From Terriglobales bacterium (GTDB lineage Bacteria > Acidobacteriota > Terriglobia > Terriglobales > Acidobacteriaceae), in NCBI GenBank assembly GCA_030038475.1, contig JASHOU010000210.1, positions 1-45,203 of the forward strand: DNA of 45,203 nt, in the 5' to 3' direction. This document shows, piece after piece, positions 38,041-38,495 of the stretch (the first letter of the stretch is position 1; each line of letters opens with the position of its first letter). The translations under genes were made by a program, and so were the position numbers. Below the pieces are notes generated by a model. It did not search any database. It was not told where the DNA came from and worked only from the letters and a program-made list of their open reading frames with translations.

Positions 38041-38270
38041 CAAAAGGTGGCAATGGATATTTCGGTACTGATCTATTAGATCAGCACCGATATTTCCGGT
38101 CACAAAACGGTGGATGTTTTTTACGGTACAATATCACTTCAACCACGGACGTGCTCGCAGCCATGCGGCAAGTCGAGGTTGCGGCGGCCAAGACGCTACC
38201 ACCCAAGAAGCCGGTAGGCCGGGCGCTTAAGGGCAAGTTAAGTGTGCAGTCGGGCCGCAAGTCGCTGTAA
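38041..38270 (+). pseudogene. Tyrosine recombinase (integrase) C-terminal relic 1
   Basis: The plus strand reads KVAMDIS, is interrupted by a palindromic insertion (38064-38088), then continues SGHKTVDVF and, after a one-base loss in a T-run near 38117-38122, RYNITSTTDVLAAMRQVE to TAA at 38268-38270. The string VAMDISGHKT..VF.RYNI is the conserved C-terminal block of phage-type integrases (catalytic His in SGHKT and Tyr in RYNI). Everything upstream is missing. It ends 8 bp before the tRNA-Lys gene on the same strand. Confidence 0.75.
38056..38096. mobile_element. 25-bp palindromic insertion with 8-bp direct repeats
   Basis: GATATTTC at 38056-38063 recurs exactly at 38089-38096. Between them 25 bp (38064-38088) form a near-perfect dyad, GGTACTGATCTA-T-TAGATCAGCACC, one mismatch in 12 pairs. 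Removing the insert and one repeat restores the integrase reading MDISGHKT. This is what a transposon-like insertion or an extreme deletion derivative with fused inverted ends would leave; 8-bp duplications are known for IS66 and IS1595 families among others. Confidence 0.65.
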
Positions 38271-38278
38271 GTTATTGA

Positions 38279-38354
38279 GGGCGCGTAGCTCAACTGGCAG
38301 AGCAACTGACTCTTAATCAGTAGGTTGAAGGTTCGATTCCTTCCGCGCTCACCA
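38279..38354 (+). tRNA. tRNA-Lys (anticodon CUU)
   Basis: A complete 76-nt cloverleaf. Acceptor GGGCGCG (38279-38285) pairs with CGCGCTC (38344-38350), D arm GCTC...GAGC, anticodon stem ACTGA/TCAGT with loop CTCTTAA (anticodon CTT), T arm GAAGG-TTCGATT-CCTTC, discriminator A and encoded CCA (38352-38354). It charges lysine and reads AAG. Integrase relics flank it on both sides. Confidence 0.97.
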
Positions 38355-38366
38355 TCCCTAAAGCAC

Positions 38367-38495
38367 TTAGCTCGCCTTGCGCTCCGTCTGCGCTCCATTC
38401 AGAGCTAACCGCGTGATTCTCCCACTAGCTACGGCCATCTCATCCGTCACGATATCACCGTAAATGTTCATCGTGGAACGTAACGGGCTAACCTT
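38367..38495 (-). pseudogene. Tyrosine recombinase C-terminal relic 2
   Basis: On the minus strand KVSPLRSTMNIYGDIVTDEM continues to LALNGAQTERKAS and TAA at 38367-38369. STMNIYGD(I/V)VTDEM is the catalytic-Tyr C terminus of a common acidobacterial integrase group. Upstream sequence is lost; only about 42 codons remain. It ends 13 bp beyond the tRNA 3' end and points towards it. The sequence differs from relic 1, so two different integrating elements have been here. Confidence 0.75.

Follow-up and report, generated by a model that had tools for sequence, protein, structure and literature searches.

The window, the whole 45,203-nucleotide stretch analysed here, comes from a soil bacterium whose 4.46 Mb draft assembly is 98.4% complete and divided into 216 contigs. 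It carries a tRNA-Lys gene with anticodon CTT at 38279–38354 on the plus strand (ARAGORN; Rfam RF00005, 73 bits). The C-terminal end of a tyrosine integrase lies on each side of this gene, on the plus strand at 38035–38270 and on the minus strand at 38367–38489, and both relics read towards the tRNA. The first-pass annotation had described this arrangement, and separate models of the two families confirmed the relics, their flanking positions and their reading directions. Its view that two different integrases are involved also held: the relics come from different families, and in our integrase tree the eight family-B rows group together (support 100/100), separate from the 55 remaining ones. 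Integrases beside tRNA genes, which it took as a mark of integration sites, are found among the relatives of both relics. It missed that the plus relic sits on the unusual side of the tRNA. The locus is a decayed scar rather than a working element, and the tRNA is the common target of the two elements discussed below.

The plus relic comprises approximately the last 65 residues of an integrase of the rare family A (5′-side), with one frameshift and a 25-bp palindromic insert. A family-A model run against the 1391 six-frame segments of the window showed its kinship with tyrosine recombinases, placing it at ranks 1 and 2 with E values of 1.2e-5 and 0.68. The second value is not significant alone, and the two segments are adjacent and colinear, at model positions 349–375 and 340–350 and one frameshift apart. 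The start was moved slightly upstream from the position first annotated, 38041, to 38035, and the annotated end stood: the stop codon ends at 38270, 8 nt before the tRNA. The residues NYQKVAMDIS encoded at 38035–38064 fit the conserved EKVAM.IS of intact family-A relatives, part of EKVAM.ISGHKT, and the insert separates this piece from SGHKT. The palindrome itself (38064–38088) interrupts the relic between 8-bp direct repeats GATATTTC, so that the unit spans 38056–38096 without a strand. It resembles a small insertion; even with up to three mismatches allowed, the genome has a single copy. Pfam gave no match for the plus-relic peptide.

The minus relic comprises the last 39 residues of a family-B (3′-side) integrase and converges on the 3′ end of the tRNA, with its stop codon at 38367–38369, 12 nt after the gene. 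It was the only one of the 1391 segments listed at E ≤ 1 by the family-B model (E 1.3e-14). Pfam found no integrase in its peptide, only an unrelated Iso_dh match at E 0.075. Family-B matches occur in 27 of 200 genomes of the order, that of the window included. Among the 14 family-B loci fetched besides the window, the 3′ end of a tRNA faces the integrase in nine, and no tRNA was found in five. A 3′ tRNA fragment of 22 to 31 nt marks the far end in three of six family-B loci (G072, G146 and G104) and none was found in G067:C18, G198 and G157. From these fragments, the family-B crossover probably lies towards the T arm or the acceptor stem. The tRNA-Lys(CTT) gene is a busy 3′ integration site in this genus. 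Its 3′ fragments, running from nt 28–31 to nt 76, are present in 9 of 24 genomes of the genus among the matches listed. In G067 and G200 the fragment shares a contig with the tRNA, at distances of 18.0 and 12.1 kb, respectively. Of 16 congeners, searched over at most 3 kb per side and less at contig ends, seven have an integrase match on the 3′ side of tRNA-Lys(CTT) and none has one on the 5′ side. When the DNA of the locus was compared with phage records, the best 20 of 1433 matches aligned at the tRNA only.

Relatives of the plus relic share its position. A search of the 200 order genomes with the relic returned itself and five others (E 2.8e-6 to 7.5e-4), and in all five a tRNA follows directly downstream in the same direction. 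Intact family-A integrases belong to Pfam Phage_integrase (E 5.8e-13 and 9.1e-18), and their genes are unsplit. With two of them as queries at E ≤ 1e-25, matches were obtained in 54 of 398 family genomes and 33 of 396 phylum genomes, giving 57 loci; one viral contig and eight family-B loci bring the integrase table to 66. A scan of genome contigs with an N-terminal pattern gave three loci, two of them already in the set, and the viral scan gave one. The 66 integrases divide into 14 codirectional with a tRNA, 23 convergent and 29 without a tRNA within 600 nt. The tRNA start in the 14 codirectional loci ranges from 22 nt upstream to 38 nt downstream of the integrase end. Every family-A locus with a neighbouring tRNA has the integrase upstream and codirectional (9/9: L103, L104, L105, L107, L108, L114 and relics in G161:C141, G070:C7 and G395:C8). 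L103, L104, L105, L106 and L108 form one clade (support 100/99), in which L106 has no tRNA nearby; the short family-A relics were assigned to it by sequence matches, not by the tree. The tree has 63 rows, after omission of three integrases shorter than 250 aa (L107, L114 and L155), and it includes two convergent rows whose tRNA is 308 and 481 nt away. The comparisons of promoters (−10) and of motifs used the 35 loci with a tRNA at 150 nt or less.

Intact loci reveal how these elements insert. In G117, about 7 nt separate the integrase end from a downstream tRNA-Met, and nt 1–40 of this tRNA plus one base recur as an exact copy 7.3 kb upstream (41/41). In G169, nt 1–40 of a tRNA-Glu plus one base have an exact copy 15.3 kb away (41/41). 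A third case is tRNA-Leu(tag) of G206, a genome of the window's own genus, where nt 1–41 plus one base are copied exactly 15.3 kb away (42/42); its integrase is more distant and lies outside the family-A clade. In G395, nt 1–22 of the tRNA are copied 2.9 kb upstream. Annotation with PHROGs identified portal, major head and head-protease genes in the G169 element and a head-closure protein in that of G117; both family-A elements are phage-derived. No 5′ fragment was found in 13 of the 17 codirectional loci examined. Among all 17, seven have less than 7 kb of contig upstream and five others, G395 included, are broken relics with more. Five loci combine a complete integrase frame with 7 kb or more of sequence (G117, G169, G206, G072 and L103), and the fragment is present in three of them. 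L103 is a viral record in which the integrase is followed by a tRNA-Gln, and its 13916 bases hold no 5′ fragment. The repeated block of the mapped elements runs from the 5′ end of the tRNA to just past the anticodon, and therefore the element supplies the 5′ half. The extent of the block suggests that 5′-side elements cross over in the anticodon stem-loop. In the intact mapped cases, 5′-side insertion thus replaces the 5′ half of the tRNA, and the tRNA is therefore parted from its promoter.

The junction at the window's tRNA resembles those of family A. An element-end motif, TGTAAGTTATTGA, abuts the 5′ end of the tRNA at 38266–38278 on the plus strand and matches CGTAAGTSATTGA at 11 of 13 positions; none of 2000 shuffles did as well. 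The same motif is in the same position in L105 and L108 (13/13 each), L105 fitting by construction because the motif was read off the element ends of G117 and G169. A good match beside the tRNA is missing in 10 of the 14 tabulated codirectional loci, the intact L104 included. The tRNA itself is identical to that of five congeners over nt 17–76 and otherwise differs from them at nt 16 alone, which is C here and T in 16 of 16 congeners. C at nt 16 is found in many tRNA-Lys genes of other genera, and this difference of one base could be a point mutation. In G193 a match extended beyond the tRNA on its upstream side, but what lies there is an ordinary upstream region.

All 16 congeners have TATAAT at −32 to −37 upstream of tRNA-Lys(CTT), and there is none upstream of the window's tRNA-Lys. 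Apparently, the 5′-side element cost the tRNA its own promoter. By nhmmer, the sequence of the window most similar to the region upstream of tRNA-Lys in the 16 congeners lies at 37363–37385 on the plus strand, 0.9 kb upstream of the tRNA. The match is weak (E 0.077; the next place, an unrelated one, has E 0.14), and it is perhaps the displaced native promoter. A promoter scan of 37250–38600 returned two sites against 1.1 expected. In the integrase table, a −10 element matching at least five of six positions was found in 4 of 14 codirectional loci, compared with 2.3% of random places in the window. None of the 21 convergent loci passed the same rule, which is blind to native promoters in general. 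The simple rule is uninformative across families, and therefore the promoter argument for the window draws only on the 16 congeners. To the left, G206 has the gene order of the window, up to window position 23976, yet a normal promoter stands at its tRNA-Lys; therefore the promoter change seems particular to the window's lineage.

The tRNA-Leu(tag) locus of G206 illustrates such a change of promoter. By eye, TAGACT or TAAACT precedes the gene in 10 of the 12 other full tRNA-Leu(tag) loci of the genus, the exceptions being L215 and L220; L225, where the contig ends within the tRNA, was not counted. The displaced 5′ fragment of G206 keeps the genus-type TAGACT; in front of the rebuilt tRNA there is instead a new TATAAT, at a distance of 34 nt and close to the 3′ end of the integrase. 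At L215 (G067:C1), TACAAT stands in other upstream sequence, and no integrase match was found within 1.5 kb. This tRNA perhaps kept the promoter of an element.

We consider it probable that two integrative elements entered tRNA-Lys(CTT) from opposite ends and left the gene as their scar, all but the C-termini of their integrases being now lost. The family-A element would have recombined at the anticodon stem-loop and brought a new 5′ half, about nt 1–40, leaving its integrase directly upstream of the rebuilt tRNA and codirectional with it, and the native promoter would have been displaced to the far end of the element. The family-B element would have recombined near the 3′ end of the tRNA, with its integrase left convergent on that end. 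Both elements would later have been lost, and the integrase C-termini against the att sites would have remained. Accepting this, the 5′ half of the present tRNA may derive from an element, later deletion may account for the missing DNA, and the tRNA, if expressed, would be transcribed from sequence that an element left behind.

Several observations speak against the two-element scar, among them the 13 of 17 codirectional loci that lack a 5′ fragment, the single-base nature of the nt 16 difference and the 10 of 14 loci that lack a good motif match. Another is that no displaced 5′ or 3′ fragment of tRNA-Lys was found in the window or in the 216-contig draft genome. A 5′ fragment, present in G117, G169 and G206, was sought in both, and the 3′ fragment seen in half of the six family-B loci has no counterpart in the window. 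The proposed search for copies of the tRNA 3′ end in the rest of the assembled genome yielded, at E ≤ 1, only other tRNAs and pieces of 24–37 nt with 81–88% identity. The plus relic is accordingly classed as the remnant of a 5′-half-mode integrase by kinship and by its layout, upstream of the tRNA and codirectional with it, and not as a mapped element. What stood of the earlier interpretation is the integrase stubs, their two families and their homes beside tRNA genes; the two elements may have been captured in succession, in either order. A further observation against the scar is that the gene order around the tRNA is rearranged compared with most congeners, and the rearrangement could itself have removed the promoter.

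This leads to the alternative that only the 3′-side element used tRNA-Lys and that a rearrangement brought the plus stub alongside, the gene order being inverted relative to most congeners. In 12 of 16 congeners, gene X immediately precedes tRNA-Lys and points the same way. In the window, gene X (41604–41963, minus strand) and an OMP_b-brl_4 gene (42612–45185, minus strand), which in most congeners are upstream and in the tRNA's direction, lie downstream and inverted; there is a local inversion with one end beside the window's tRNA-Lys. A pseudogene of a TPR protein (37548–38024, minus strand; 42–54% identity in pieces by tblastn with the neighbouring TPR protein at 34346–37267) abuts the plus stub, which would also suit such a rearrangement. 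However, stub and tRNA are separated by 8 nt and the element-end motif lies between them, as in the layout of intact family-A loci, and the normal promoter of G206 before tRNA-Lys coexists with the window's left-hand gene order. We therefore regard this alternative as unlikely. The TPR pseudogene directly precedes the plus relic, between it and the possible old promoter. From the shared left-hand genes to tRNA-Lys, the window has about 14.3 kb (23976–38278) compared with 3.6 kb in G206. This segment carries FG-GAP/ASH, Peptidase_S74 and TPR genes, and may be part of a lost island.

The 5′-side element might instead have brought a complete tRNA gene and left it behind, and phages that carry whole tRNA genes for lysogeny are on record (PMC10865867). 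This is very improbable here: in the three mapped elements the far end holds only nt 1–40 or 1–41 and the one full tRNA is at the integrase end, and the window's tRNA matches five congeners over nt 17–76. That the stubs are chance reading frames is hardly credible, short as they are and passed over by Pfam, given the E value of the minus relic, the two best, adjacent and colinear segments of the plus relic and the tRNA on the same side in all five of its order relatives.

Use of one tRNA from both sides is not confined to the window. Integrase sequence is also present on the 3′ side in 3 of the 14 codirectional loci, namely G161 tRNA-Val, where it belongs to family B, G206 tRNA-Leu(tag) and G218 tRNA-Glu. 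G206 also has a 3′ fragment of tRNA-Leu(tag), nt 32–85, on another contig, and this overlaps the 5′ fragment only at nt 32–41, the anticodon loop region. The overlap suggests that elements of both kinds can use the anticodon loop core. On the 63-integrase tree the side label requires eight changes, at least five of them by well-supported branches. The family-A clade is uniform in side among rows with a tRNA, and overall clustering by side is weak, since 47 and 59 of 500 label shuffles gave counts as low. The number of true side changes is uncertain because outside the family-A clade G206 alone has a mapped 5′ fragment. tRNA-Leu(caa) is hit from opposite sides by related integrases, codirectional in L120 and convergent in L111 and L113. 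The L120 tRNA is preceded by sequence similar to that in front of the convergent L130, which would fit an element equipped with a host-like promoter. With slightly more doubt than confidence, we suggest that integrase lineages of Acidobacteriota can use the anticodon loop core either way, that the orientation of attP would determine which half of the tRNA is renewed, the 5′ one (with or without a promoter) or the 3′ one, and that one tRNA could be rebuilt from both ends by rival elements and come under element-supplied transcription. This suggestion draws on the overlap of the G206 fragments in the anticodon loop region only, the at least five supported side changes and the near-consensus −10 at the integrase end in 4 of 14 loci.

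Replacement of the 5′ half takes over the promoter of a tRNA, and the host may thus come to rely on element DNA for its supply of that tRNA, even once the element itself is in decay. The two-sided tRNAs point to a single tRNA core that can serve in both directions. Family A, with its intact phage-derived members, offers a bacterial test case for a mode that has been detailed in archaea. Both stubs of the window, missed by Pfam, were found by models built from their own relatives.

Integration at a tRNA 5′ half is a known rarity that has rarely been described in bacteria, and the present locus is a new bacterial instance. Among the open-access papers listed for integrases or tRNA in Acidobacteria or Acidobacteriota and for two-sided use, one on Solibacter (PMC3174227) included, no title or abstract opening mentions such a case; we make no claim that 5′ use in Acidobacteriota is unpublished. 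The minus relic alone fits the usual kind of tRNA island, the classical 3′-end islands, which have an integrase facing the tRNA 3′ end and do not cost the tRNA its promoter; short 3′ fragments at the far end of such islands are likewise seen in family B (3/6 loci). Of the 3919 islands counted by Islander, 3760 have a 3′ tDNA fragment and 159 a 5′ one (PMC4383910). As in our loci, its 5′ islands have the fragment upstream and the whole tRNA at the other end, but they are an algorithmic count across genomes, unlike the loci mapped here. A close parallel in mode is given by the pTN3-like integrases of Thermococcales, whose attB is described as a tRNA 5′ half (PMC8371274, PMC5495485). There too, the rebuilt tRNA lies downstream of integrase sequence and has lost its own promoter. 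pTN3 is an archaeal plasmid whose integrase gene is split on integration, whereas the elements described here are bacterial, keep the integrase gene whole and, in the two family-A elements annotated, are phage-derived. Family A and pTN3 work alike, and we claim no kinship of family A to the pTN3 or SSV integrases.
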